The notes beneath the pieces were generated by a model. It saw only the letters and a list, made by a program, of their open reading frames with translations. It was not told the DNA's origin and did no database searches. Shown piece after piece: positions 43,278 through 59,004 of a stretch of DNA of 64,000 nt. The first letter of the stretch is position 1. Each line of letters opens with the position of its first letter. Made by a program: the position numbers and the translations under genes. Source of the DNA: Halarcobacter ebronensis (GTDB lineage Bacteria > Campylobacterota > Campylobacteria > Campylobacterales > Arcobacteraceae); contig NZ_CP053836.1 of the NCBI RefSeq assembly GCF_013201825.1, positions 124,001 to 188,000 on the forward strand, given 5' to 3'.

Positions 43278-43284
43278 TCGTTAA

Positions 43285-43310
43285 AAAAATGTGAACTGCT
43301 TCACATTTTT
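43285..43310 (+). terminator. Rho-independent terminator after the nucleoside phosphorylase-like gene
   Basis: AAAAATGTGAA and TTCACATTTTT form a perfect 11-bp stem with a CTGC loop. The T-rich right arm acts as the tract. It separates the parS site from the tandem array. Confidence 0.8.
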
Positions 43311-43320
43311 AGATGTTGAA

Positions 43321-43787
43321 AGCGAAATGGATATGCGAAAGCATCCATGAAGCTCGAGAAACATCGTAAAGTTTTTATGAAGCGAAATGGATATGCGAAA
43401 GCATCCATGAAGCTCGAGAAACATCGTAAAGTTTTTATGAAGCGAAATGGATATGCGAAAGCATCCATGAAGCTCGAGAAACATCGTAAAGTTTTTATGA
43501 AGCGAAATGGATATGCGAAAGCATCCATGAAGCTCGAGAAACATCGTAAAGTTTTTATGAAGCGAAATGGATATGCGAAAGCATCCATGAAGCTCGAGAA
43601 ACATCGTAAAGTTTTTATGAAGCGAAATGGATATGCGAAAGCATCCATGAAGCTCGAGAAACATCGTAAAGTTTTTATGAAGCGAAATGGATATGCGAAA
43701 GCATCCATGAAGCTCGAGAAACATCGTAAAGTTTTTATGAAGCGAAATGGATATGCGAAAGCATCCATAAAGCTTGAGAAAGATTGT
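43321..43787. repeat. 60-bp tandem repeat array (7 identical copies plus 1 decayed)
   Basis: Seven perfect copies of a 60-bp unit fill 43321-43740; an eighth, from 43741, diverges after about 27 bases. Each unit holds a hairpin: ATGG and ATGC (unit positions 7-10 and 13-16) pair with GCAT and CCAT (21-28) around a GAAA tetraloop with a 2-base bulge. Each also holds CTCGAGAAACATCGT (unit 33-47), which matches the right half and flank of the adjacent parS at 13 of 15 positions. Because 60 is a multiple of three, several frames stay open on both strands, but none has a ribosome site. I read the array as non-coding. The rest of the 635-base gap up to rlmN (43788-43898) is AT-rich and shows only the rlmN ribosome site. 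Confidence 0.95.
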
Positions 43788-43898
43788 TAAAACTTTGGCA
43801 AATAAAATGTAGTAAGTTTAAAAAACGAATCTAAATAGAGAGTATCAAGAGTAAAAAATTGTTGATAGAATTAAATTAAAAAGATAGAAAGGAAAAGA

Positions 43899-46987: not shown

Positions 46988-47017
46988 GAAAATCTCACAA
47001 AAATTTGCAAGATTTTC
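46988..47017 (-). terminator. Hairpin at the end of cusA
   Basis: GAAAATCT (46988-46995) and AGATTTTC (47010-47017) are 8-bp inverted arms spanning the cusA stop codon. It is terminator-like for the efflux operon, with only a short T-rich stretch. Confidence 0.5.
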
Positions 47018-50000
47018 AATTTTTAACAATATCCCCTTTTTTTACAAGCGCTAAAATATAAAAAACTGATGGAATAATAATAAGCGTCAATATTGCTGAC
47101 GATGCCATTCCTCCAATCATAGGTGCAGCAATTCTTTGCATAACCTCACTACCAACTCCATCTATATACATTATAGGAATAAGTCCACCTAATATTGCAA
47201 AAAGCGTCATAAGTTTTGGTCTTAATCTTAAAACAGCACCTTTATAAATTGCCTGCGCAATTGTATCTTTATCAAAAACTTTCTTATCTCTTTTCAACTC
47301 ACTCATTGCTTCATGTAGATATACAATCATTACAATAGAGGTTTCAGATGCAACGCCAAGTAGTGCTAAAAATCCTACAATAACCGCAATAGAGATATTA
47401 AAGCCTAAATAATCTAAATAGAACAATCCTCCTGAAAATGCAAAAGGAAGAGTAAAAAATATTATTGTTGTATAGGTAATATTTTTTAGTGCAAAATAGA
47501 TAAGTATAAATATAATTATAAAAGTTAAAGGGATAATATAAGCCAATCTGCTCATTGCAGATTCTAAATATTCACTTTGTCCTGACCATTCATAATAAAA
47601 ACCCTCAGGTAGTTTCAACTTATTTAAAAGTGTTTGTGCTCTATCTTTATAGGCTTTTACAGATATTTCACTTTTAGGAGTAATATAAATAAAGTTTACA
47701 TTTAAAGCTTTCTCTGATTTTATAACAGATGGACCCTCTTCATAATAAATCTTTACAAACATCTCTAAAGGTTGGAATCCCAATTTTGTTTTTACTTGAA
47801 GATTTTTTAATGTAGTTATATCTTCCCTTTGTGCAATATTAAATCTAAGTGAAATAGGATATCTCTCTAAGCCATCAAAAAAAGTTGAAATTTTGCTACC
47901 TGCAACACCAAGAGAGACTGTTGATAAAACATCATTTTTTGTAATTCCATATTGCGCAATCATATTTTCATCTACATCAATATTTAAATAGTATCCAGAG
48001 TTTATTTTATCAGTTGAAACTGATAATGTTTGGTCAAATTTTCTTAATATTTGTTCAATTTTTCCTGCTGTCTCTTCTAATTTTTGATGGTCATTTCCAA
48101 AAAGTTTTATACCAAGGGGAGTTCTAATCCCTGTTAAAAGCATATCAATTCTACCTCTAATAGGATATGTCCAAGAGTTGATAAGCCCTCCCACTTGAAG
48201 TTTTTCATCCATCTCTTGCATAAGCTTTTTATAGGTCATTCCTTCTCTCCATTGAGATTCGGGTTTAAGAGTAATGATTGTTTCTATCATAGCTAATGGA
48301 GCAGGGTCTGTTGCACTATCAGCTCGACCAGCTTTACCAAATACAGTTTGTACTTCTGGAAAAGATTTCAAAATTCTATCTGTTTTTTGGGTCAACTCTT
48401 TTGCCAAATCAATCCCAATTCCATAAGGAGTAACAGGCATATACATAAAAGTTTGTTCATTCATCATTGGCATAAATTCCCAGTTTAATTTTTTGTAAGC
48501 TGGATAAATAGCAATAATTGTAATAACAAATATACCAACAACCATATATCTAAACTTTAGTGAAAGTTTTAAAAGTGGAGAGTATAATGAGATAAAAAAT
48601 CTATTTAGATAGTTTTTTTTCTCATCTAAAATTTTACCTTTTATGAAAAATGTCATTAAAATAGGAACAAGGGTGATTGATAAAAGTGCCCCTGAAATCA
48701 TGGCAAAAGATTTTGTAAAAGCCAAAGGAGAGAAGAGTCTTCCCTCTTGTCCACTTAAAGCAAAAATTGGTAAAAATGAGACAACTACAAGGATAAGAGC
48801 AAAAAAGATAGGACGACCAACTTGTTTTGCTGAATTTATAATTATCTCTTTTCTTTTTGCATTTGATAAATCATCTTTTCCTTGAAGATGTTTATGGGCG
48901 TTTTCTACCATTACAATGGTGGCATCAACCATTGCTCCAATTGCAATTGCAATTCCCCCAAGACTCATAATATTTGAGCCCAAATCAAAAGCCTTCATAA
49001 GTAAAAATGTAAATAGAACTGTAACAGGCAGTGTTATAATGATAATCAAAGCACTTCTAAAATGAAATAGAAAAATAGCTGTAACAATCATAACAATTAT
49101 AGATTCATCTAATAATGTATGTTTTAAAGTATCAATAGCTTTATCTATAAGCGAAGTTCTATCATATGTTTCAACAACTTCAACATCATCAACTTTCAAA
49201 GTTTTTAGTTTCTCTTTAACCCTTTTTATAACATCATAAGGATTCTCACCATATCTTACAACAATAATTCCACCAACAGTTTCACCTTCACCATCTAAAT
49301 CAACCATTCCTCTTCTATTTGATGAGGTAATATTAACTTGGGCAATATCTTTTATAGTAACAGGAATAGAATTATTCGTTTTTACTGTAATATTTTCAAT
49401 ATCTTTTACACTTTTTAAGAATCCTTTTGCTTGAATCATATGTTCAAAACCATTCTCTAAAATAATTCTTCCACCTTTTTCATCATTATTATTTGCAATA
49501 GCTTTTTTAACATCATTAATACTTAAGTCATATTGCACAAGTCTATCTTGATTTAGAGTAATCTCATAGTTTTTGATATATCCACCTACAGAAGCAACTT
49601 CACTTACTCCATCAACACCTAAAAGTGCAAATTTATAGTAGTAGTCTTGAAGAGTTCGCAACTCATCCAAAGATTTAGTTTTTGATTTTAAAGCATATTC
49701 ATAAGCCCAACCAACACCTGTTGCATCAGGTCCAATTGCTACATCAACACCTGTTGGAAAACTTCCTTGAAGTTGAGATAATTGCTCTAATATTCTATTT
49801 CTTGAGTCATATAAATCAGTACCATCTTTAAAGATTATATATATAAGAGCATTTTGAAAAGAACTCATTGCTCTTACTGTTTTAATATTTGGAAGACTCA
49901 TTAGATTTGAGATAAGTGGGTATGACACTTGATCTTCTATTGTTTTTGGACTTTGTCCTGGCCACTTAACTTGAACAATCACTTGTGGTGGAGACAAGTC

Positions 50001-50120
50001 AGGAAGTGCATCAAGAGAGCTGTGTTTAACAGACCAATATGAAGCGATAATTAAAACAAGGGTAGAAATAAGTATAAAAAATCTATTTCTAATGCTAAAA
50101 GAGATAATTGATTCAACCAT
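47016..50120 (-). CDS. cusA: CusA/CzcA-family heavy-metal RND efflux pump
   Basis: 1034 aa, full-length trimeric RND transporter with twelve membrane segments and two large periplasmic loops. Methionines equivalent to the CusA Cu/Ag shuttle are present: in FMYMPV (about 558), LAMIETII (about 609) and RIDMLLTG (about 659), with the same spacing as Met573/623/672 of E. coli CusA. This favours copper or silver over zinc/cobalt. It expels metal from periplasm and cytoplasm through CusB and CusC. Last gene of the minus-strand efflux operon. Confidence 0.92.
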   Translation of the reverse strand: MVESIISFSIRNRFFILISTLVLIIASYWSVKHSSLDALPDLSPPQVIVQVKWPGQSPKTIEDQVSYPLISNLMSLPNIKTVRAMSSFQNALIYIIFKDGTDLYDSRNRILEQLSQLQGSFPTGVDVAIGPDATGVGWAYEYALKSKTKSLDELRTLQDYYYKFALLGVDGVSEVASVGGYIKNYEITLNQDRLVQYDLSINDVKKAIANNNDEKGGRIILENGFEHMIQAKGFLKSVKDIENITVKTNNSIPVTIKDIAQVNITSSNRRGMVDLDGEGETVGGIIVVRYGENPYDVIKRVKEKLKTLKVDDVEVVETYDRTSLIDKAIDTLKHTLLDESIIVMIVTAIFLFHFRSALIIIITLPVTVLFTFLLMKAFDLGSNIMSLGGIAIAIGAMVDATIVMVENAHKHLQGKDDLSNAKRKEIIINSAKQVGRPIFFALILVVVSFLPIFALSGQEGRLFSPLAFTKSFAMISGALLSITLVPILMTFFIKGKILDEKKNYLNRFFISLYSPLLKLSLKFRYMVVGIFVITIIAIYPAYKKLNWEFMPMMNEQTFMYMPVTPYGIGIDLAKELTQKTDRILKSFPEVQTVFGKAGRADSATDPAPLAMIETIITLKPESQWREGMTYKKLMQEMDEKLQVGGLINSWTYPIRGRIDMLLTGIRTPLGIKLFGNDHQKLEETAGKIEQILRKFDQTLSVSTDKINSGYYLNIDVDENMIAQYGITKNDVLSTVSLGVAGSKISTFFDGLERYPISLRFNIAQREDITTLKNLQVKTKLGFQPLEMFVKIYYEEGPSVIKSEKALNVNFIYITPKSEISVKAYKDRAQTLLNKLKLPEGFYYEWSGQSEYLESAMSRLAYIIPLTFIIIFILIYFALKNITYTTIIFFTLPFAFSGGLFYLDYLGFNISIAVIVGFLALLGVASETSIVMIVYLHEAMSELKRDKKVFDKDTIAQAIYKGAVLRLRPKLMTLFAILGGLIPIMYIDGVGSEVMQRIAAPMIGGMASSAILTLIIIPSVFYILALVKKGDIVKN

Positions 50121-50129
50121 TTTTATTTC

Positions 50130-51131
50130 CTACCAATCACCATTATCTAAAGTATAAAGTCCATTTGTTATTGCATCTGAATCAAGAAGGAATAAAGCAT
50201 TATCTATTACCTCTTCTCCTTCATTTAAGCCACTTAAAATCTCATATTTATTCGAGGAAATTCTTTTAGCTTCAACCTCAATTGGTTCATACTCTTTTTG
50301 TGAAAGATATTTAAAGACATACTTTTTATCACCTTTAAGTAGCACTGCAGTTTTTGGAAGTGTTAACATCTCTTTTTGATTCTCTTGAATAAAAACTTTT
50401 CCAAACATATTTGGATAATATTTTAGTTCTTTGTTTTCAAGAACAAATCTTACATCAACAGATTTTGTTTGAGAGTTTACCAAAGGGTAAATTTTATCAA
50501 CTTTTACACTTAGTGATTCATTTACTCCATCTAAAGAGATTTTTGCTTTCATTCCATCTTTTACAAAAGATAGATCATTTTGGTAAATTGAGGCAATAAA
50601 CCAAATTTTATCTAATGATGCCAATTGTAAAAGAAGATTTCCTTTTTTTACATAACTTCCATCATTTATCTGTTTTTTTAATACAATTGCATTTGTTGGA
50701 GCAAAAACATCTATCTGTTTTAAAACTCTATTTGAATTTTTTATTTTATCTATAACTTTTGAATCAACTTCAAGTGAGTTTAGTTTTTCTAAATTTGAAG
50801 AGAGTAAATCTTTGTTAAATTTTTTTGCAAGTTGTATCTCTTGTTGAAGAGACAAAATTTCATCAGAGTAGATAGAAAAAAGTTTTTCTCCTTTTTTTAT
50901 ATCTTTGTACTGTTCATTTGCATATAGTTTTGTAATATAACCGTCAAATCTGCTTACAATATCATAAATTTTTGACTCGTCAAAAGCAGTACGTCCATAA
51001 AAGCTTTTTAAGGTACCTATTTGTTCTTTTTGTACTTTTGTAAGCTTTTTATTGAACAACTGCTCAACTTGCAGAATTTCAGCATTTAATATTGTAACTC
51101 CCATTATTAGGGATATTATTAGAGCTCTCAC
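50130..51131 (-). CDS. cusB: RND efflux periplasmic adaptor (CusB-type)
   Basis: 333 aa with a signal peptide (1-17, ending L-N-A). A lipoyl-like and helical-hairpin region (about 60-150) and a beta-barrel (about 165-240, LASLDKIWFIASIYQNDLSFV) are visible. The membrane-proximal end has GLNEGEEVIDNALFLLDSDA. Shorter than E. coli CusB (407) and without an obvious Met-rich N-terminal site. It bridges CusA and the outer-membrane channel. Overlaps the outer-membrane gene by 4 bases. Confidence 0.88.
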   Translation of the reverse strand: MRALIISLIMGVTILNAEILQVEQLFNKKLTKVQKEQIGTLKSFYGRTAFDESKIYDIVSRFDGYITKLYANEQYKDIKKGEKLFSIYSDEILSLQQEIQLAKKFNKDLLSSNLEKLNSLEVDSKVIDKIKNSNRVLKQIDVFAPTNAIVLKKQINDGSYVKKGNLLLQLASLDKIWFIASIYQNDLSFVKDGMKAKISLDGVNESLSVKVDKIYPLVNSQTKSVDVRFVLENKELKYYPNMFGKVFIQENQKEMLTLPKTAVLLKGDKKYVFKYLSQKEYEPIEVEAKRISSNKYEILSGLNEGEEVIDNALFLLDSDAITNGLYTLDNGDW

Positions 51132-52330
51132 TTCTCAATCCTTGTAAAATAGTATGATTTAGCCAATGAAGTAAAATATTTATCCTTTTCATCAATAGCT
51201 TTTAGTTTATATTTGATTATTTCATTTTGATTTTTTATCAATGTATTTGTATCAATTTTTTTATTGTTTGAGTAACTATTGTTACTCTCCAAAATTTTTT
51301 GTAATGACTCATATTTTGGAAGAATAGATTTTTCTATTATATTATATGTAGTAATTGAGTCATCAATAGATTTTTGTAAAACCTCAATTTGATTTTTAAA
51401 TTTGAACTTTAAATCCTCAAGTTGATTTTGAGCTTGAGCTGATTTAAATTTTGCTTTTGTAACTTCAATATTCTCTTTTCCATATATTGGAAGTGGAAAT
51501 GCTAATGAAAAGTTTAGATAGTCTTCATATTTGTCATCCCTTTGGAAATAACTTAAATTCACTTTAATATCAGAAATTTTTTTTGCATTTTCAAGTTTTG
51601 ATTGAGTTGTGAATTTTTTAGTTTGTGTATCAAAAGATAAAATCTTTGGATGTGAAGAGATATCTTTTTCAAGTTTAATATTTTTTAAATTTGTATCTAT
51701 CTCAAATGTGTCAAACTTTTTATAAGTAAGTTCTTCTAGTTTTAAATAGCTTGTATCCAAAAATGTTTTTAATTGTTGTGCTTTTAAATTTAATTCTTCA
51801 TATAAAATTTGTGTAGTTATTATCTGCTCTTGTGAAGCCTTAGAGTATTTATAAAAATTTTTTAATAGATTTTCAATATCTTTAACATTTGATTTAAACT
51901 CTTCATATAAAAACAATCTCTCTTCTAAGAGTTTGATTTTATAGATATATTCATAGATATTTGATTTAAGTTCAAGTCTTTTTTCATCTAACTGATATTT
52001 AGAGATTGAGTAATCATCTTTTGCAATCTTTTCTTTTAATTCTAGTTTTCCATTTGTTGGAAAAGCTTGAGTTATACCAATAAATTGAGCTTGCATAGGC
52101 TCTTTGTCCCTAGCACTTATATCATTTAGTTGTAAATCATTTGCTCCAATAGTCAAAATGGGATTTTCCCATTTTGTTGCAAGAGATATCTGCTGTTTTG
52201 AAATCTCTATAGAGTTTTCTAAAGCTTTTAAACTATAGTTATTCTCTAATGTTTGATTTACAACTTCATCTACAGTAGCTGCCTTTAATAATAGAGGCAA
52301 TAAAATAAGTGGCAGATATCTCTTTTTCAT
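51128..52330 (-). CDS. cusC: TolC/CusC-family outer-membrane efflux protein
   Basis: 400 aa, signal peptide (about 1-17), then long amphipathic helices in two TolC repeats (around NYSLKALENSIEISKQQISLA and LKLEELTYK). The channel for the CusBA pump. Length is at the short end for the family, as in CzcC proteins. Its ATG overlaps the preceding small gene's stop by one base. Confidence 0.85.
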   Translation of the reverse strand: MKKRYLPLILLPLLLKAATVDEVVNQTLENNYSLKALENSIEISKQQISLATKWENPILTIGANDLQLNDISARDKEPMQAQFIGITQAFPTNGKLELKEKIAKDDYSISKYQLDEKRLELKSNIYEYIYKIKLLEERLFLYEEFKSNVKDIENLLKNFYKYSKASQEQIITTQILYEELNLKAQQLKTFLDTSYLKLEELTYKKFDTFEIDTNLKNIKLEKDISSHPKILSFDTQTKKFTTQSKLENAKKISDIKVNLSYFQRDDKYEDYLNFSLAFPLPIYGKENIEVTKAKFKSAQAQNQLEDLKFKFKNQIEVLQKSIDDSITTYNIIEKSILPKYESLQKILESNNSYSNNKKIDTNTLIKNQNEIIKYKLKAIDEKDKYFTSLAKSYYFTRIEK

Positions 52331-52713
52331 TATAGGTTTACACTTGATCTAATTTTATGTACTTTTTCATCTGCTGTTTTAAATAGAAGATGATATTGCC
52401 ATGTCCCACCCATAGATAGATTAACTGAAAATGTATATTTTCCATCAACAAGCTCAGCTTTTCTCTCATGTTCCATATATGGCATTCCTGGCATTTCTGG
52501 CATAAAAAACTTAGCTTTTACTTTTGCATCACTTACTACTTTGCCATCTTTTATTAGAGTTACTATAAAAGTGTTCTTCCCTACAACAAGAGATTTTGCA
52601 GATTGAAGTTGAACTTCATATCCATCTGTAGTTCCTTTTAGGTCAATAGGTTCTGCATTTAATAAAATACATGAGAAAATTAAAATTGAAACGATTTTTA
52701 AAAGTTGTTTCAT
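52330..52713 (-). CDS. YtkA/FixH-like periplasmic protein with Met-rich loop
   Basis: 127 aa with a signal peptide (1-20, ending L-N-A). The rest is an immunoglobulin-like YtkA domain. A loop M-P-E-M-P-G-M-P-Y-M-E-H supplies four Met and one His and could bind Cu(I) like CusF or CopC-type carriers. YtkA-like proteins are often found beside copper efflux genes. It may deliver copper to CusB, taking the place of CusF, which is not seen here. Confidence 0.8.
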   Translation of the reverse strand: MKQLLKIVSILIFSCILLNAEPIDLKGTTDGYEVQLQSAKSLVVGKNTFIVTLIKDGKVVSDAKVKAKFFMPEMPGMPYMEHERKAELVDGKYTFSVNLSMGGTWQYHLLFKTADEKVHKIRSSVNL

Positions 52714-52774
52714 AGATTGCTCCTTCTTTGATTTATGAAAGTTTATTTTTCTAATATGGAAGGAGTGTGGAAAT

Positions 52775-53926
52775 CTAAAACTTTAAAGTGAAAGTAGTTC
52801 CTTGATTTATTTGAGAAGTTACATCAATTTTGATTGAGTATTTATTACAAATATTTTTAACAATATTAAGACCAATACCAAAACCTCCACTTAAATTTGT
52901 GGCTCTAAAATATCTGCTAAAAATATCTTTTAATTTTTCTTGTTCTATTCCTATTCCTGTATCTGAAATAGTTAAGGTATTATTGATTAGTTCAATTTTT
53001 ATAGACCCTTTTTGTTTGTTATATTTTATTGCATTTGAGAGAAGATTGTTAAATAGTCTAATAAAATCATTTTCATCAATTGTAAAAAAAGAGTCTTCAA
53101 CTTTTGTAGTTATAATAACTTTTTTCTTTTCTGCTAATGCTTCAAAGTACTCAATTTGTGAGTTAATTAACTCTTTTAAATTATACAGTTTTGCTTTGGT
53201 TTCATTTGGTCTATCTTCTAGAAAAATATAGGTTAAATCTTTATAAACTTCTGAGATTTTTTGGGCAGCAAGTTTTACTCTTTTTATCTGTTTTTCTGTC
53301 AAGTGACTATCTTCTGTTGACATTAAAATGGCACTAATTGGAGTATTTAGCTCATGGGTTGTATCTTTTATAAAGTTGTTTAGTCTCTCTCTTTCATCTT
53401 TTATAGGGTTTAAAAATAGTTTTGCAAGAAAAAATCCAATAATGGAGATAATAAAATATATGATAAAAAAGAATATAATTATCTCTATTTTTAGATTTTG
53501 AACCCTTTTAAAATAGAGATTCTCTTTAATGGCAATATAGTAGATATTTAGATGTCCATAGGTTGATTTGTCAACTAATATAAAGTTCTTGTCTTTTAGA
53601 ATAATATCTTTTGAAAAATCTATGTTATCTTCCAAATTGCCTAAAAACATCTTTTTATCTTTACCATAAAAAGAGATTTTATATGTGTCACTTTTTAAAA
53701 ATTGAGATAAATCTAAATCTGAACTACTCATATGTGCATAGATGATTTGAGCAGAGATATTTGATACAACATTTTGCATTTTTGTTTTTGCTAAATCAAA
53801 ATAGAGTTTTTTCTCTTTTTGATAATAAAGAACGGCAACAAGTAACATAAGAAGTAAAGAACCTCCTAAATAGAGGCTAAAAAATCTAATAAAAGTACTC
53901 TTTTCACTTTGAGTTAAATCTATAAT
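52775..53926 (-). CDS. Sensor histidine kinase A of the metal cluster, apparent ATT start
   Basis: With the ATT at 53926 as start the protein has 383 aa and begins D-L-T-Q-S-E shortly after its start, matching its paralogue (V-I-D-L-T-R-S-E) at 54656-55819. The first ordinary start, ATG 53848, would cut the first membrane helix in half. An upstream ATG (53931) is out of frame by one base. Two membrane helices flank a periplasmic domain (about 50-140); the H-box is THELNTPISAI and the ATPase has NLLSNAIKYN and GFGIGLNIVKNI. Likely CusS-type sensor for copper. It is followed after 61 bases by the YtkA-like gene and the efflux operon. Confidence 0.8.
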   Translation of the reverse strand: MIDLTQSEKSTFIRFFSLYLGGSLLLMLLVAVLYYQKEKKLYFDLAKTKMQNVVSNISAQIIYAHMSSSDLDLSQFLKSDTYKISFYGKDKKMFLGNLEDNIDFSKDIILKDKNFILVDKSTYGHLNIYYIAIKENLYFKRVQNLKIEIIIFFFIIYFIISIIGFFLAKLFLNPIKDERERLNNFIKDTTHELNTPISAILMSTEDSHLTEKQIKRVKLAAQKISEVYKDLTYIFLEDRPNETKAKLYNLKELINSQIEYFEALAEKKKVIITTKVEDSFFTIDENDFIRLFNNLLSNAIKYNKQKGSIKIELINNTLTISDTGIGIEQEKLKDIFSRYFRATNLSGGFGIGLNIVKNICNKYSIKIDVTSQINQGTTFTLKF

Positions 53927-54006: not shown

Positions 54007-54666
54007 ATGAAAATTTTACTTTTAGAAGATGATACTCTATTAAATGAGATAATAGAGGAGTTTTTAGAAAAACTTGAATATACAATTGTTACAACTTTTG
54101 ATGGACAAGAGGCTTTGGAAACTATCTATGAACAGAAGTTTGACTTACTTATTCTTGATGTAAATGTACCTAGTTTAAATGGCTTTGATCTCTTAAAAGA
54201 GTTAAAAGCAAACTCTATTGATATTCCAACAATCTATATAACCTCTTTACACACTTCAAAAGATATGGAAGATGGATTTAAAGCTGGAGCTGATGATTAT
54301 ATTAAAAAACCTTTTCATTTAAGTGAGCTGAATCTAAGAATAAATAATATCAAAAGATTGAGACAAATAGAAGCCAGTGGAATAGTAAAATTAAATGACA
54401 AAATCTCTTATGATAATGATAAAAAAGTGGTGCTTATTGACTCAAATGAGATTCAACTATCAAAAACAGAATCAAGGGTATTTGAGTATCTAATCAAAAA
54501 CAGAAACAAAGCAATTTCAATAGAAGAGATCGCTTTAAACAATTGGGTTTATGATGAAGCTCCAACCGATACAACCATAAGAACATATATAAAAAATATA
54601 AGAAAGATATTAGGCAAAGATAGTATCTCTACAACAAAAGGAATAGGATATAAACTCAATCTTTAA
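54007..54666 (+). CDS. OmpR-type response regulator A of the metal cluster
   Basis: 219 aa from ATG 54007 (M-K-I-L-L-L-E-D-D); longer in-frame versions starting upstream would cross the promoter. Receiver with acidic pocket EDD, phospho-acceptor Asp in LLILDVNVP (about residue 51) and the lysine in YIKKPF. The C-terminal winged helix ends ISTTKGIGYKLNL. Divergent from kinase A and convergent with kinase B (11-base overlap). Probably pairs with kinase A and controls the cus operon. Confidence 0.9.
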   Translation: MKILLLEDDTLLNEIIEEFLEKLEYTIVTTFDGQEALETIYEQKFDLLILDVNVPSLNGFDLLKELKANSIDIPTIYITSLHTSKDMEDGFKAGADDYIKKPFHLSELNLRINNIKRLRQIEASGIVKLNDKISYDNDKKVVLIDSNEIQLSKTESRVFEYLIKNRNKAISIEEIALNNWVYDEAPTDTTIRTYIKNIRKILGKDSISTTKGIGYKLNL

Positions 54667-55819
54667 ATTTTAGTTTAAAGGTTGTTCCCACATTCTCTTG
54701 GGATTGAACATCTATTTTAATATCATAAGTTGTACATATATGATAAACAATATTTAAACCAATACCAAAACCACCTTGCTCTTTTGTTGCTCTGTAGTAT
54801 CTGTTAAAAATATCTTTCAATCTATCTTTTTTTATTCCAATACCACTATCTTCTATCGTAAGCTCTTTTTCTTTAAGAGTTATATTAATAAAGCCTTCAA
54901 TTTTATTATATTTTATTGCGTTAGAGATAAGGTTATTAAAAAGTCTTACAAAATTTTCCCTATCCATTTTAATAACAGTTGCTTCTAAATTACAGTTTAT
55001 AGCAAGCCTCTTTTTTTGGGCGAAAGAGTCAAAATTATCTAATTGTTCTTTTATTATCTCATCAATTTTTAACTCTTTTATAACTGTTTTACTATTACTA
55101 TCTTGCAAAAAGAGATAGACTAAATCTTTATATATCTCAGAGATTCTTTTTGCACTTAAATTTATCCTTTGCATGTTTTTTTCAGTTAGTTGAGCATCTT
55201 TACCTGTACTCATTAAAATAGCTGTAATAGGAGTATTTAATTCGTGAGTTGTATCTTTGATAAAATTGTTTAACTTTTTTCTCTCATTTATAATTGGACT
55301 TATAAACATACTTGCTAGATAATAACCAATAACAGCAATTGCACAATAGATTACAAAGAAAGAGAAAATAAGTCTTTCCAATAAAGTTGTGATTTTTTCA
55401 TGATAGATATTCTCTCTAATTACAATATGATAAACTCCTAAATGCCCTCTTGGTGTGTTATCAACCAAAACATAACTATCATCTATTTTTTGAAGTCTTT
55501 GTGAGAGATCAATACTCTCTCTAATATTTCCTATTAGTTTTCTGTGCTCTTTATCATATAAGGCATAATCATATTTAATAAAATTCGCCATTTTTGCGGT
55601 GTTTATTGATAGACCTGCCATATGGGCATAAATTATTGTTGAAGAGACTTTTGAGGCAACATTTTGCATATTTGAGGTAATCAAATCATACTGAAGTCTT
55701 GACTCCATTTTATAAAAAAGCAAAAATATTATTGATAATAGTATAAAGGAAGAACCTAGATACATTCCAAGGAATTTACGGAAGGTTATTCTCTCACTTC
55801 TTGTTAAATCTATAACCAA
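54656..55819 (-). CDS. Sensor histidine kinase B of the metal cluster
   Basis: 387 aa from TTG 55819 inside the end of response regulator B. Membrane helices at about 15-37 and 145-170 flank a periplasmic sensor domain. H-box THELNTPITAI, N-box NLISNAIKYN and GFGIGLNIVYHI are intact. It is a clear paralogue of kinase A, with the same order of segments throughout. The signal is unknown; copper or another soft metal is plausible from context. Confidence 0.9.
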   Translation of the reverse strand: MVIDLTRSERITFRKFLGMYLGSSFILLSIIFLLFYKMESRLQYDLITSNMQNVASKVSSTIIYAHMAGLSINTAKMANFIKYDYALYDKEHRKLIGNIRESIDLSQRLQKIDDSYVLVDNTPRGHLGVYHIVIRENIYHEKITTLLERLIFSFFVIYCAIAVIGYYLASMFISPIINERKKLNNFIKDTTHELNTPITAILMSTGKDAQLTEKNMQRINLSAKRISEIYKDLVYLFLQDSNSKTVIKELKIDEIIKEQLDNFDSFAQKKRLAINCNLEATVIKMDRENFVRLFNNLISNAIKYNKIEGFINITLKEKELTIEDSGIGIKKDRLKDIFNRYYRATKEQGGFGIGLNIVYHICTTYDIKIDVQSQENVGTTFKLKFKD

Positions 55820-56453
55820 CTCCTTTAATAGTCTCTATATACTCTTCTCCCAATATTTTTCTAATATTTTTGATATAAGTTCTAATTGTTGATGAGGTTG
55901 GAGCATCTTCATAGTTCCAAATATTAGAGCTTAATTCCTCTTGTGAGATACATCTATTTGTATTTTTTAGAAGATATTTAAGAATTTGAGCCTCTTTTAA
56001 TGGAAGTTTACTTTTAATAGAGTTATTATCCACATAGTTTAGTTTTGTATTAAATCTAATATTCTCATCTATAATTAAATCTTCATCATCTAAGTGCAGA
56101 AGCCTTTTGATATTATTTATTCTAAGCTCTAACTCTTTAAGCTCAAAAGGTTTTTTCAAGTAGTCATCGGCTCCTGCTTTAAATCCCTCTTCAACATCAT
56201 CAACTGAATCAAGAGAGGTTATAAAAATAGCAGGGGTAGTAATACTATTTTCTCGCAAGCTTTTAAGAAATTCAAAACCAGTCATATTTGGTACATTGAC
56301 ATCTAAAATCAATAAATCAAAATGCTCTTCATAGATTAGTTCACAAGCTTTCATCCCATCAAATACACAAGTAACTTCATATTCTAGCCCTTGCAAAAAC
56401 TCTTCAATAATCTCATTTAAAATTAAATCATCTTCTAATAACAATATTTTCAT
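55794..56453 (-). CDS. OmpR-type response regulator B of the metal cluster
   Basis: 219 aa from the ATG at 56453; longer in-frame versions exist but run through the promoter. Receiver with EDD, phospho-acceptor Asp in LLILDVNVP and YLKKPF, then a winged helix ending IETIKGVGYRFNKK. Paralogue of regulator A. It is transcribed with kinase B (26-base overlap) and diverges from yceI and the RiPP genes, which it may control. Confidence 0.9.
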   Translation of the reverse strand: MKILLLEDDLILNEIIEEFLQGLEYEVTCVFDGMKACELIYEEHFDLLILDVNVPNMTGFEFLKSLRENSITTPAIFITSLDSVDDVEEGFKAGADDYLKKPFELKELELRINNIKRLLHLDDEDLIIDENIRFNTKLNYVDNNSIKSKLPLKEAQILKYLLKNTNRCISQEELSSNIWNYEDAPTSSTIRTYIKNIRKILGEEYIETIKGVGYRFNKK

Positions 56454-56465: not shown

Positions 56466-56562
56466 ACATATATTAAAAAAAATAATCCCCACAGATTCTA
56501 CACAAAGGCTTAACATATTTTTATTAAAATGAAAATACAAATTGACAAAGAAGGAGTATAAG

Positions 56563-57144
56563 ATGAGATTTTTGAGTAAAGTTCTGTTTACAAGTTTAGT
56601 AGGAGTAAGTCTAGCATATGCGACACCATATAGTTTAGATGGAGCACATAGTGAAGTTGGATTTTCGGTAAAACATATGATGATTTCAAATGTTAAGGGT
56701 GAATTTACCTCATATGATGCAAAGATTGATTTTGATGCTGCAAAAAAAAGTTTTAATACTTTAGAAGCTGTAATTAAAGTTGAATCAATAGATACTGGAA
56801 TAGAAAAAAGAGATAATCACCTAAGAAGTGAAGATTTTTTCTATGCAAAAGAGTTTCCTTTAATCACTTTTAAAATGAAATCTTATAAAGCAGATGGCGA
56901 TGAGGGTGTTGCAATTGGGGATTTGACAATTAGAGGTGTAACAAAAGAGATTAAACTTGATGTTGAAGATATAGCAACAGTAAAAGATTTCAAAGGAAAT
57001 GAGAGAGTAGGGTTTACTATTAAAGGTAAAATAAATAGAATGGATTATGGATTAAAATGGAATCAGGCTCTTGAATTAGGTGGAGTTGCCGTTAGTGAAG
57101 ATGTAAAATTAGTTATTGAAGTTGAGGCAGTTGAAAGCAAATAG
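56563..57144 (+). CDS. YceI-family periplasmic protein
   Basis: 193 aa from ATG 56563 with AAGGAG 7 bases upstream; an earlier in-frame TTG (56542) would place this ribosome site inside the gene. Signal peptide 1-22 ending A-Y-A. The lipocalin-like YceI domain has YSLDGAHSEVGFSVKHMM, the LRSEDFFYAKEFP block and a C-terminal RMDYGLKWN. YceI proteins bind polyisoprenoids or similar amphiphiles in the periplasm. Only 36 bases separate it from the RiPP precursor gene and no terminator is visible, so it probably heads that operon. Confidence 0.92.
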   Translation: MRFLSKVLFTSLVGVSLAYATPYSLDGAHSEVGFSVKHMMISNVKGEFTSYDAKIDFDAAKKSFNTLEAVIKVESIDTGIEKRDNHLRSEDFFYAKEFPLITFKMKSYKADGDEGVAIGDLTIRGVTKEIKLDVEDIATVKDFKGNERVGFTIKGKINRMDYGLKWNQALELGGVAVSEDVKLVIEVEAVESK

Positions 57145-57180
57145 AAACTAAAATAACAACTTTAGAAAAAGGATAGGTGC

Positions 57181-57489
57181 ATGAAAAATCAAAAAATCAA
57201 GTTAGCAGGAGTTCTTTTAGGAGCTGCACTAACAAGTACAGGAGCATTTGCTGCTAGTGGTTCTTGTGGCGCTGGAAAGTGTGGAAGTGAACCTAAAAAA
57301 GTAGAAACTAAAGGTTCTTGTGGTGCTGGAAAATGCGGTTCTGAAAAAAAAGATCAAACATCAACAAACACAAATGAGATGTCAGGAAACGCGGGTAAAA
57401 AAACAAATATGGCTTGTGGTGCTGGGAAATGTGGTGCTAATATGAACAAAAAAGTTGAAGGTTCTTGTGGCGCTGGAAAATGCGGGTGA
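57181..57489 (+). CDS. hvfA: Cys-rich RiPP precursor, oxazolin/bufferin (HvfA-like) type
   Basis: 102 aa. A signal peptide (about 1-24, ending A-F-A) is followed by four CGAGKCG motifs (eight Cys) separated by Lys/Ser/Thr-rich linkers; the last motif ends at the stop codon. This closely resembles HvfA-type precursors with repeated EGKCG motifs, whose cysteines are turned into oxazolone-thioamide groups by an MNIO enzyme to bind copper. Ala replaces the usual Glu before GKCG. It is followed by the MNIO gene (14 bases) and a DUF2063 gene. Exported modified peptide for copper buffering is inferred from family and from the adjacent cus genes. Confidence 0.87.
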   Translation: MKNQKIKLAGVLLGAALTSTGAFAASGSCGAGKCGSEPKKVETKGSCGAGKCGSEKKDQTSTNTNEMSGNAGKKTNMACGAGKCGANMNKKVEGSCGAGKCG

Positions 57490-57503
57490 AATGGCGAAGA
57501 TAG

Positions 57504-58325
57504 ATGATAAATTTAAAAGGGTGTGGTTTAGGTCTTAGAAGTAATTTTTTACTTGAGGTGTCAAAAAGTGAGTTTCAACCTGATTGGTGGGAAGTTACAC
57601 CTGAAAACTGGATGCATATGCCAAAAATTTATGAGAAAGCATTTGAAGAAGCAGTTTTTTCAAGGCCAACTGTAGCCCATGGTTTATCTTTATCTATAGG
57701 TTCTATTGAGAAACTCAATAAAAAGTTTGTAAAACAGATGAAAGAGTTTCTTGATAGATACAATATTGAATTTTATTCTGAACATCTCTCTTTCTCATCT
57801 TTAGATGGACGACAATCTTACGAACTGCTTCCAATTCCTATGACAAAAAAGATGGTAAATTTAGTTAGTGATAAAGTAAAAGAGGTTGAGGATATAATTC
57901 AAAGAAAACTTATTTTAGAGAATGCCACCTACTATTATGTACCTTATGCAGAGATGGCTGAGGTAGATTTTATAAATGAAGTTATGGAAAAATCTAAAGC
58001 AAAAATGCTTTTAGATGTAAATAATGTATTTGTAAATTCAGTTAATCACACTTTTAAAGCAAAAAAATTTATAGATAATTTAGACAAAAGTGTAATTGCA
58101 TATATGCATATTGCAGGACACTATTTTGACAAAGACTCAAATATTAGAATTGATTCACACGGAATGCCTATATGTTCAGGAGTTTGGAAACTTTTGGAAC
58201 ATACATTAAAACAAATTGATGCTCCTGTTATGATTGAAAGAGATAATAATATTCCTCCATTAAATGAACTAGAAATAGAGTATAAAAATATGCAAAGTAT
58301 TGTAAAAAGAGTTAGAGATGCCTAA
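57504..58325 (+). CDS. hvfB: MNIO (DUF692) peptide-modifying iron oxidase
   Basis: 273 aa, full-length multinuclear non-heme iron oxidase of the DUF692 family. The N-terminus GCGLGLRSNFLLEV is the family signature. Candidate iron ligands are all in place: His in VAHGLSLS, Glu-His in YSEHLSF, Glu in LENATYY, Asp/Asn in LLDVNNVFVN, His in MHIAGHY, the DSHG pair and Glu in MIERDNN. Such enzymes oxidise precursor cysteines to oxazolone-thioamide or related groups. Its end overlaps the DUF2063 partner by 8 bases. Confidence 0.93.
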   Translation: MINLKGCGLGLRSNFLLEVSKSEFQPDWWEVTPENWMHMPKIYEKAFEEAVFSRPTVAHGLSLSIGSIEKLNKKFVKQMKEFLDRYNIEFYSEHLSFSSLDGRQSYELLPIPMTKKMVNLVSDKVKEVEDIIQRKLILENATYYYVPYAEMAEVDFINEVMEKSKAKMLLDVNNVFVNSVNHTFKAKKFIDNLDKSVIAYMHIAGHYFDKDSNIRIDSHGMPICSGVWKLLEHTLKQIDAPVMIERDNNIPPLNELEIEYKNMQSIVKRVRDA

Positions 58326-59004
58326 ATTGGAAAAAGAGATCCAAAAAAGATTTTTTGATAATTTAATAAATCAAAGTGAAGATTTTGAAAACTCTGCAAT
58401 TGAAGTCTATCAAAAACTTGTTTTTCAAAGATATTATGAGGTAATAAAAAATAGCTTTCCTCTTTTTATGAAAGAGATTGAGAAAGAAGATTTAGACAAA
58501 AGCATAAAAGCTTTTATGAAAGATACGCCAAATACACCTTTTATGTGGAAAGTTCCAAAATATTACAAAAACTTTGTAAAAAAAAGTGCTCTCTTTGATG
58601 ATAAAAAGTATCTTTATGAATTGCTCTATTTTGATTGGACTGAAATAGAGATTTATATGAAAGAGTATAAAAGTAAAAAGTTGGGAAGTTTCTCTTTTAA
58701 TGAAAGTTTTAAACTCTCAAAAAGTGCTAGAGTAAAAAGATTTAAATATGATATTGTAAATAAAAATTACAAAGAAAAAAGAGAAAACTTTTTAGTAATC
58801 TATTATGATTTTCAAACCAATGAAGTAATCTACAGAGAGATAAATCAACTAATATATCTACTTTTAAAAGAGAGTAAAAAGAGTAAAACTTTTAAAGAGA
58901 TTTTACAAAAGCTTTGTAAAGCAAATGATATAGTATATAAAGAGGCAGAAAACCTCTTATTTAAGCCCCTAGAGGAGCTTTTTGAAAAAAGAGTCTTTAT
59001 CTAA
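58318..59004 (+). CDS. hvfC: DUF2063 partner protein (HvfC-like)
   Basis: 228 aa. The N-terminal helical part (about 1-110, FQRYYEVIKNSFPLFMKEI, then YLYELLYFDWTEIEIYM) fits DUF2063, the putative precursor-recognition partner of DUF692 enzymes. The C-terminal part (about 130-228) fits the winged-helix-like domain often fused to it (EVIYREINQLIYLLLKES). MNIO enzymes usually need this partner to hold the leader peptide. Overlap with the enzyme gene supports complex formation. No DoxX-type fourth gene follows; the next gene is convergent. Confidence 0.85.
   Translation: MPKLEKEIQKRFFDNLINQSEDFENSAIEVYQKLVFQRYYEVIKNSFPLFMKEIEKEDLDKSIKAFMKDTPNTPFMWKVPKYYKNFVKKSALFDDKKYLYELLYFDWTEIEIYMKEYKSKKLGSFSFNESFKLSKSARVKRFKYDIVNKNYKEKRENFLVIYYDFQTNEVIYREINQLIYLLLKESKKSKTFKEILQKLCKANDIVYKEAENLLFKPLEELFEKRVFI

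Follow-up and report, generated by a model that had tools for sequence, protein, structure and literature searches.

A cassette in Halarcobacter ebronensis probably encodes a captophorin (oxazolin/HvfA-family) pathway, through which a periplasmic copper-binding peptide would be made under the control of an OmpR-family regulator. The cassette lies in the window analyzed here (64,000 nucleotides of contig NZ_CP053836.1, positions 124,001 to 188,000) and consists of a signal-peptide precursor with four cysteine-containing cores, an MNIO (DUF692) iron oxidase, and its HvfC-type partner, preceded by a YceI-family gene and a conserved promoter (Table 1). The system is soundly described as one of a known kind, in a lineage outside the main-text discussion of the MNIO papers found, and as a variant by its cores, enzyme pocket, and regulation. 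An earlier note, made without database searches, had reported the precursor with its eight cysteines, the oxidase, the DUF2063 partner, and, beside them, copper efflux and two sensor systems. These observations were confirmed; an RND pump operon and two two-component systems adjoin the cassette. The interpretation attached to the observations is partly supported. The more interesting differences had been missed: the gene for YceI, the conserved promoter, and the substitutions in the specificity pocket.

Locus organization

Gene content, family membership, ligand positions, promoter architecture, and synteny were observed directly. The MNIO and partner open reading frames overlap by 8 bp and lie on the same strand as the precursor, and the MNIO gene is the only one in the complete 3.17-Mb genome. 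The cassette had previously been taken to begin at position 56563, which is the ATG of the separate YceI gene; the precursor starts at 57181. YceI holds the first-gene position in many relatives too. Elsewhere in the window, a tandem array at 43281-43790, with long open frames on both strands and identical 20-aa repeats (MKLEKHRKVFMKRNGYAKAS...), is probably repetitive DNA and not a gene.

Table 1. Genes and sequence elements of the cassette and its surroundings (window coordinates)
Feature	Position	Strand	Evidence
YceI-family periplasmic protein, 193 aa, opens the unit	56563..57144	+	PF04264, 153.6 bits
RiPP precursor, HvfA/captophorin family, 102 aa	57181..57489	+	NF050137, 45.8 bits (cut-off 19.5)
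Predicted Sec-type signal peptide of precursor, 24 aa	57181..57252	+	Read from sequence; conserved in relatives
Core 1, CGAGKCG, Cys29 and Cys34	57265..57285	+	Sequence
Core 2, CGAGKCG, Cys47 and Cys52	57319..57339	+	Sequence
Core 3, CGAGKCG, Cys79 and Cys84	57415..57435	+	Sequence
Core 4, CGAGKCG, Cys96 and Cys101	57466..57486	+	Sequence
MNIO (DUF692, HvfB-like) iron oxidase	57504..58325	+	PF05114, 287 bits; HvfB top NCBIfam family
HvfC/PME1-type partner (DUF2063 plus RRE)	58318..59004	+	NGO1945_C above its cut-off
Putative response-regulator box, CCCCACA-N4-CTACACA, direct repeat, 11-bp period	56487..56504	+	Conserved in relatives
Third, weaker half-site, CTTAACA	56509-56515	+	Beside the direct repeat
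-10 element TAAAAT, exactly 9 nt past proximal half-site	56525..56530	+	
Response regulator RR2, OmpR family, divergent from cassette	55794..56453	-	PF00072/PF00486; syntenic in relatives
Sensor kinase HK2	54656..55819	-	HisKA/HATPase
Response regulator RR1, RR2 paralogue, 58% identical	54007..54666	+	
Sensor kinase HK1	52775..53848	-	
Related box before CrdA-like gene, TTCCACA-N4-TTCCATA, 9 nt from TAAACT (52740-52745)	52755..52772	-	
CrdA-like periplasmic protein (YtkA fold), Met motif MPEMPGMPYMEH	52330..52713	-	PF13115
Outer-membrane efflux protein (CrdB/TolC type)	51128..52330	-	PF02321
Periplasmic adaptor (CzcB type)	50130..51131	-	Position and sequence
Cus-type RND metal pump	47016..50120	-	CusA 951 bits versus ZneA 477

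Precursor peptide and cores

The precursor opens with the predicted signal peptide MKNQKIKLAGVLLGAALTSTGAFA, which lacks a lipobox cysteine and whose cleavage site was placed by eye after AFA. Conservation of this N-terminal Sec signal in relatives is consistent with the export route that had been proposed. All eight cysteines fall within four identical CGAGKCG cores, and even two copies of this heptamer appeared in 0 of 20,000 composition shuffles. Because the precursor passes the curated NCBI model of the HvfA family (NF050137), it was assigned to the oxazolin/captophorin family; its score of 25.2 bits with the narrow HvfA equivalog model (NF050188) is below the cut-off of 95, and by these profiles it is a relative of HvfA and not HvfA itself. 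The window precursor had no profile match to DUF2282 or to bufferin precursors with 6/12 cysteines.

Each core retains Lys-Cys and lacks the Glu found in most family members (EGKCG). The AGKCG cores reported as new are present but are already accepted by the HvfA-family model. CGAGKCG-like cores without this Glu occur in most Campylobacterota cassettes, and a locus-specific origin was rejected.

At two further loci, an intact MNIO and partner are preceded by a Met-rich signal-peptide open reading frame with no cysteine (L037) or one cysteine (L068), and a search of both genomes found no HvfA-like precursor elsewhere. The precursors of one family (L045, L046, L048, L049, L052, and L064) start near MNRR(K/E)AM, a twin-arginine-like sequence that differs from the other cassette signal peptides.

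MNIO, partner, and substrate pocket

The oxidase matches PDB 3BWW (E=3.8e-46), and all 11 compared positions, iron ligands included, are conserved, in line with the ligands described in the earlier note. HvfB is its top NCBIfam family (309.7 bits, below the equivalog cut-off of 360 of NF003818); the bufferin model scores 245.7 bits, and MbnB is a distant match (47.7 bits). The partner likewise has HvfC as its top family and misses the equivalog cut-off (70.8 versus 142 bits). Its family profile matches PDB 3DEE across the full length of the partner (E=1.1e-14); an AlphaFold2 model of modest confidence (mean pLDDT 66.8) gave 3DEE and TglI as top folds, and the link to 3DEE comes mainly from the profile search. 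The proposed placement in the oxazolin-type family was borne out.

Two residues of FonB have been named as specificity sites: Arg16, which touches the substrate Glu, and Phe250, which touches Lys and Gly (PMC13097082). In the window MNIO, these sites are occupied by Ser and Asn, respectively. Ser at site 16 is found in all MNIOs of the window's clade, and Phe250 is missing from every Campylobacterota MNIO examined, with Asn, His, or Gly in its place. Viral contigs and plasmid records were searched for cassettes with EGKCG cores as comparators; the viral contigs contained none, and the plasmid records gave one good comparator, a Moraxella plasmid cassette (L092) with KCGEAKCG cores and with Arg-Arg and Phe intact. 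These changes and the Moraxella cassette would fit a matching of pocket to core, which we put forward as a hypothesis because there are very few events on the tree. Co-evolution of Arg16-to-Ser with Lys-to-Ser fits within the clade, yet it is one correlated event on the tree, and independent-pair tests of the Arg16/Lys correlation had no power. Arg16 does not simply track Glu, as many Glu-less KCGAGKCG cassettes retain Arg16.

Distribution

Within the order, 39 of 399 genomes carry an MNIO; within the genus, where the cassette is near-core, 15 of 16 do. The window's clade comprises 24 MNIOs (support 100) with SCGAGKCG cores. The first cysteine follows Ser/Ala in this clade and Lys in most other families; almost no repeat of the clade keeps a Lys before the first cysteine, whereas the one preceding the second cysteine is retained.

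DoxX/HvfX is frequent, but not obligatory, in HvfA/oxazolin clusters. There is none near the window cassette, and the two DoxX genes of the genome are both far off. DoxX is absent across the window's clade, whereas many other Campylobacterota cassettes have it downstream of the partner gene (Pfam confirmed). The absence of DoxX, reported earlier as new, is thus real but a clade trait, and three-gene cassettes are known (mmrABC [PMC12538549]); its reading as a missing part of the cassette was rejected for the same reasons.

One genome of the genus (G399; L134:5385-7424) retains RR2, HK2, the box, and YceI but lacks precursor, MNIO, and partner, and YceI adjoins a MATE gene where the three-gene module is missing. 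In relatives that have the cassette, precursor, MNIO, and partner occur together. This joint presence and absence indicates that the three genes come and go as a single module, and that YceI plus the regulator can stand alone. The main texts of the MNIO papers found do not mention Campylobacterota or Arcobacter in discussing these cassettes, and a literature search found no experiments on any Campylobacterota member.

Copper neighborhood

The gene order of the neighboring operon (YtkA/CrdA-like protein, TolC, adaptor, RND) is that of crdAB-czcBA of H. pylori. The motif MPEMPGMPYM of the CrdA-like protein resembles the copper motif of H. pylori CrdA (PMC9182242), and Met561, Met611, and Met660 of the pump are the equivalents of CusA Met573, Met623, and Met672, completing the triad. 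The operon match and the retained methionine triad indicate a genuine copper context. Among relatives of the Poseidonibacter type, the pump operon immediately precedes the cassette and is encoded on the same strand. Conserved stretches in the sensor domains of HK1 and HK2 (AHM and GHLG) permitted no metal assignment.

Promoter and putative regulon

Between RR2 and YceI, two 7-bp repeats spaced 11 bp apart are followed after 9 nt by the -10 element. Before cassettes across the phylum, the general architecture is CTACACA-N4-CTACACA-N9-TANAAT. A matrix was built from 12 window-like loci and applied to 36 held-out loci. It ranked the sequence upstream of the cassette first within the locus in 18 of them and among the top 5% in 27 (about 2 expected, although related loci are not independent). 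Of 46 cassettes, 32 have a -10-like hexamer (TANNWT) whose distance from the proximal half-site is exactly 9 nt, compared with 2.6% at random. The related box of the crdA-like gene has the identical 9-nt spacing.

A pattern search of the H. ebronensis genome found two copies of the exact box. One precedes the cassette; the other (G000:C1:1124653-1124670; L102:3654-4706), which likewise stands 9 nt from TAAAAT, immediately precedes dsbB and the gene of a TlpA/ResA-like thiol protein. In other genomes of the genus, the box recurs upstream of dsbB and of genes for a DsbA-like protein, an HtrA-like protease, and a small cytochrome c. The distance to the -10 element is 9 nt at dsbB and the cytochrome c gene and 9 to 10 nt at the DsbA-like gene; at the HtrA-like gene, no -10 element was seen at that distance. 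Box-like repeats upstream of HtrA-like protease or small cytochrome c genes were noted at L163, L166, and L169 and at L138, L144, L160, L168, and L172. Some one-mismatch matches lie inside genes and were attributed to chance; a reversed-pattern control also gave a few one-mismatch matches per genome.

RR2 is most likely the binder of the box, as judged from its adjacency, the conservation of the box, and agreement between recognition helices. RR1 and RR2 share the identical helix TIRTYIKN. In one family (L045, L049, L052, and L064), the boxes are TTGCACA-like and the helix, where a neighboring regulator was found, is GALRVYINKLKQ.

The occurrence of the same promoter box before dsbB, DsbA-like, and cytochrome c genes suggests that a CpxR/CrdR-like regulator may place the peptide in an envelope/thiol-stress regulon. 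The nearest analogy would be CpxR of E. coli, whose targets include dsbA and degP and which increases yceI in one data set; the Cpx system also responds to copper (PMC2731931). The conserved promoter does not seem to have been described so far, nor do the altered repeats and the matching change in the enzyme pocket.

Relationship to known systems

Oxazolin HvfABC(X) of nontypeable Haemophilus influenzae shares the Sec-signal precursor, paired Cys repeats, MNIO, and HvfC-type partner (PMC13419390, PMC13097082). HvfA has three AEGKCGEGKCG units, whereas the window precursor has four SCGAGKCG/ACGAGKCG units; moreover, the window unit lacks HvfX/DoxX, begins with YceI, has Arg16 and Phe250 of the MNIO replaced, and lies beside a two-component system and a crd-type pump. 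The mmrABC genes of Microbulbifer likewise encode precursor, MNIO, and DUF2063 protein without DoxX, with two-Cys cassettes, but the cores are EGKCG and the neighboring genes were judged unrelated by the authors (PMC12538549). The captophorins fontiphorin (FonABC) and gonophorin have the same Lys-Cys class MNIO/PME1 pair but Glu-containing cores and Phe250 in their enzymes, unlike Campylobacterota enzymes (PMC13097082).

Bufferins Buf1 and Buf2 also have a signal peptide, an MNIO, and a DUF2063 protein and perform the periplasmic copper buffering that is predicted here (PMC12452194), but their precursors are of the DUF2282 or 6/12-Cys type and the window MNIO scores lower with the bufferin model than with that of HvfB. 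The likeness to H. pylori crdAB-czcBA/CrdRS (Met-rich protein, OMF, adaptor, and RND in the same order) is that of the neighboring operon, and no MNIO cassette has been described with the H. pylori operon (PMC9182242, PMC12319023). Two-component control, putative for the window, is a further point of likeness to CrdRS.

Proposed pathway and alternatives

Chemistry, export, copper binding, and the regulator are inferred from sequence as follows. The HvfC-type partner would load the substrate onto the MNIO in the cytoplasm, and the MNIO would oxidize the cysteines of the CGAGKCG cores (approximately -4 Da per Cys), giving up to eight 5-thiooxazoles per precursor. The Sec signal would export the modified peptide and then be cleaved, and the resulting 78-residue basic product, with a calculated average mass of 7512.4 Da before modification, would buffer Cu(I) in the envelope, next to the CrdAB-CzcBA/Cus-type pump. 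The unit would be activated through the CTACACA-type repeat by a response regulator of the OmpR family, for which the adjacent RR2 is the likeliest candidate, and YceI and periplasmic thiol-handling genes would be switched on together with it. Related products contain 5-thiooxazole and bind copper (PMC13097082), and in related two-Cys units every cysteine is modified, with a loss of 4H each (PMC12538549). The chemistry given in the earlier note needs an update, as the products of related systems, once assigned as oxazolone/thioamide, have been revised to 5-thiooxazole (PMC13097082, PMC13419390).

The altered specificity residues Arg16 and Phe250 mean that the chemistry could differ. Ala occupies the place of FonA Glu6 between the two core cysteines, and Glu6-to-Ala in a FonA test substrate slowed FonBC (PMC13097082). 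Nevertheless, a different product of the changed pocket, such as an oxazolone/thioamide or another oxidation, is very unlikely, as FonB with Ala or Asp at these sites still made 5-thiooxazole (PMC13097082). It is unlikely, though less so, that the peptide is half modified, with the GKCG cysteines (Cys34, 52, 84, and 101) converted to 5-thiooxazole and the SCG/ACG cysteines left as free thiols, which would create mixed thiol/thiooxazole copper sites. The loss of Lys before the first cysteine but not the second, with Arg16-to-Ser within the same clade, and the single modification by FonBC of some non-EGKCG test substrates (PMC13097082) argue for such a peptide; however, FonBC tolerated replacement of the Lys by Ala, Arg, or Thr (PMC13097082), and both cysteines of MmrA cassettes are modified (PMC12538549).

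Other alternatives concern the role of the product. Methanobactins are among MNIO products, and MbnB is a distant match of the window enzyme, but a secreted, methanobactin-like chalkophore for copper acquisition, rather than a buffer, is extremely unlikely, since the MNIO is HvfB-like and far from MbnB and the unit contains no uptake receptor, exporter, or peptidase gene. A main role in envelope thiol/disulfide stress or with another soft metal (Ag, Au, Hg, or Cd), with copper secondary, is unlikely but of more weight. The promoter shared within the genus with dsbB, DsbA-like, HtrA-like protease, and small cytochrome c genes would point as strongly toward envelope/thiol stress as toward copper, but the adjoining pump and periplasmic protein carry copper-type methionines and characterized relatives bind copper (PMC13097082). 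The two readings overlap, because CpxR-dependent envelope stress in E. coli is itself copper-responsive and yceI is among the genes that respond to CpxR (PMC2731931).

Implications

Beyond the captophorin pathway itself, it is tentatively possible that the cassettes form a distinct Campylobacterota captophorin branch, in which the enzyme has drifted toward Glu-less cores, so that mixed thiol/5-thiooxazole copper sites are left, and in which one promoter architecture unites the peptide, YceI, and the disulfide machinery (DsbB, DsbA-like) in a single copper/envelope-stress regulon. If true, a phylum better known for pathogens would have its own copper-peptide branch. Its Glu-less cores and altered Arg16 and Phe250 sites would provide natural enzyme-substrate pairs for the study of MNIO specificity. 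The defined promoter box, the adjoining two-component systems, and the candidate coregulated thiol-handling genes would offer a regulatory handle, and a connection of copper peptides with disulfide stress would become directly testable.
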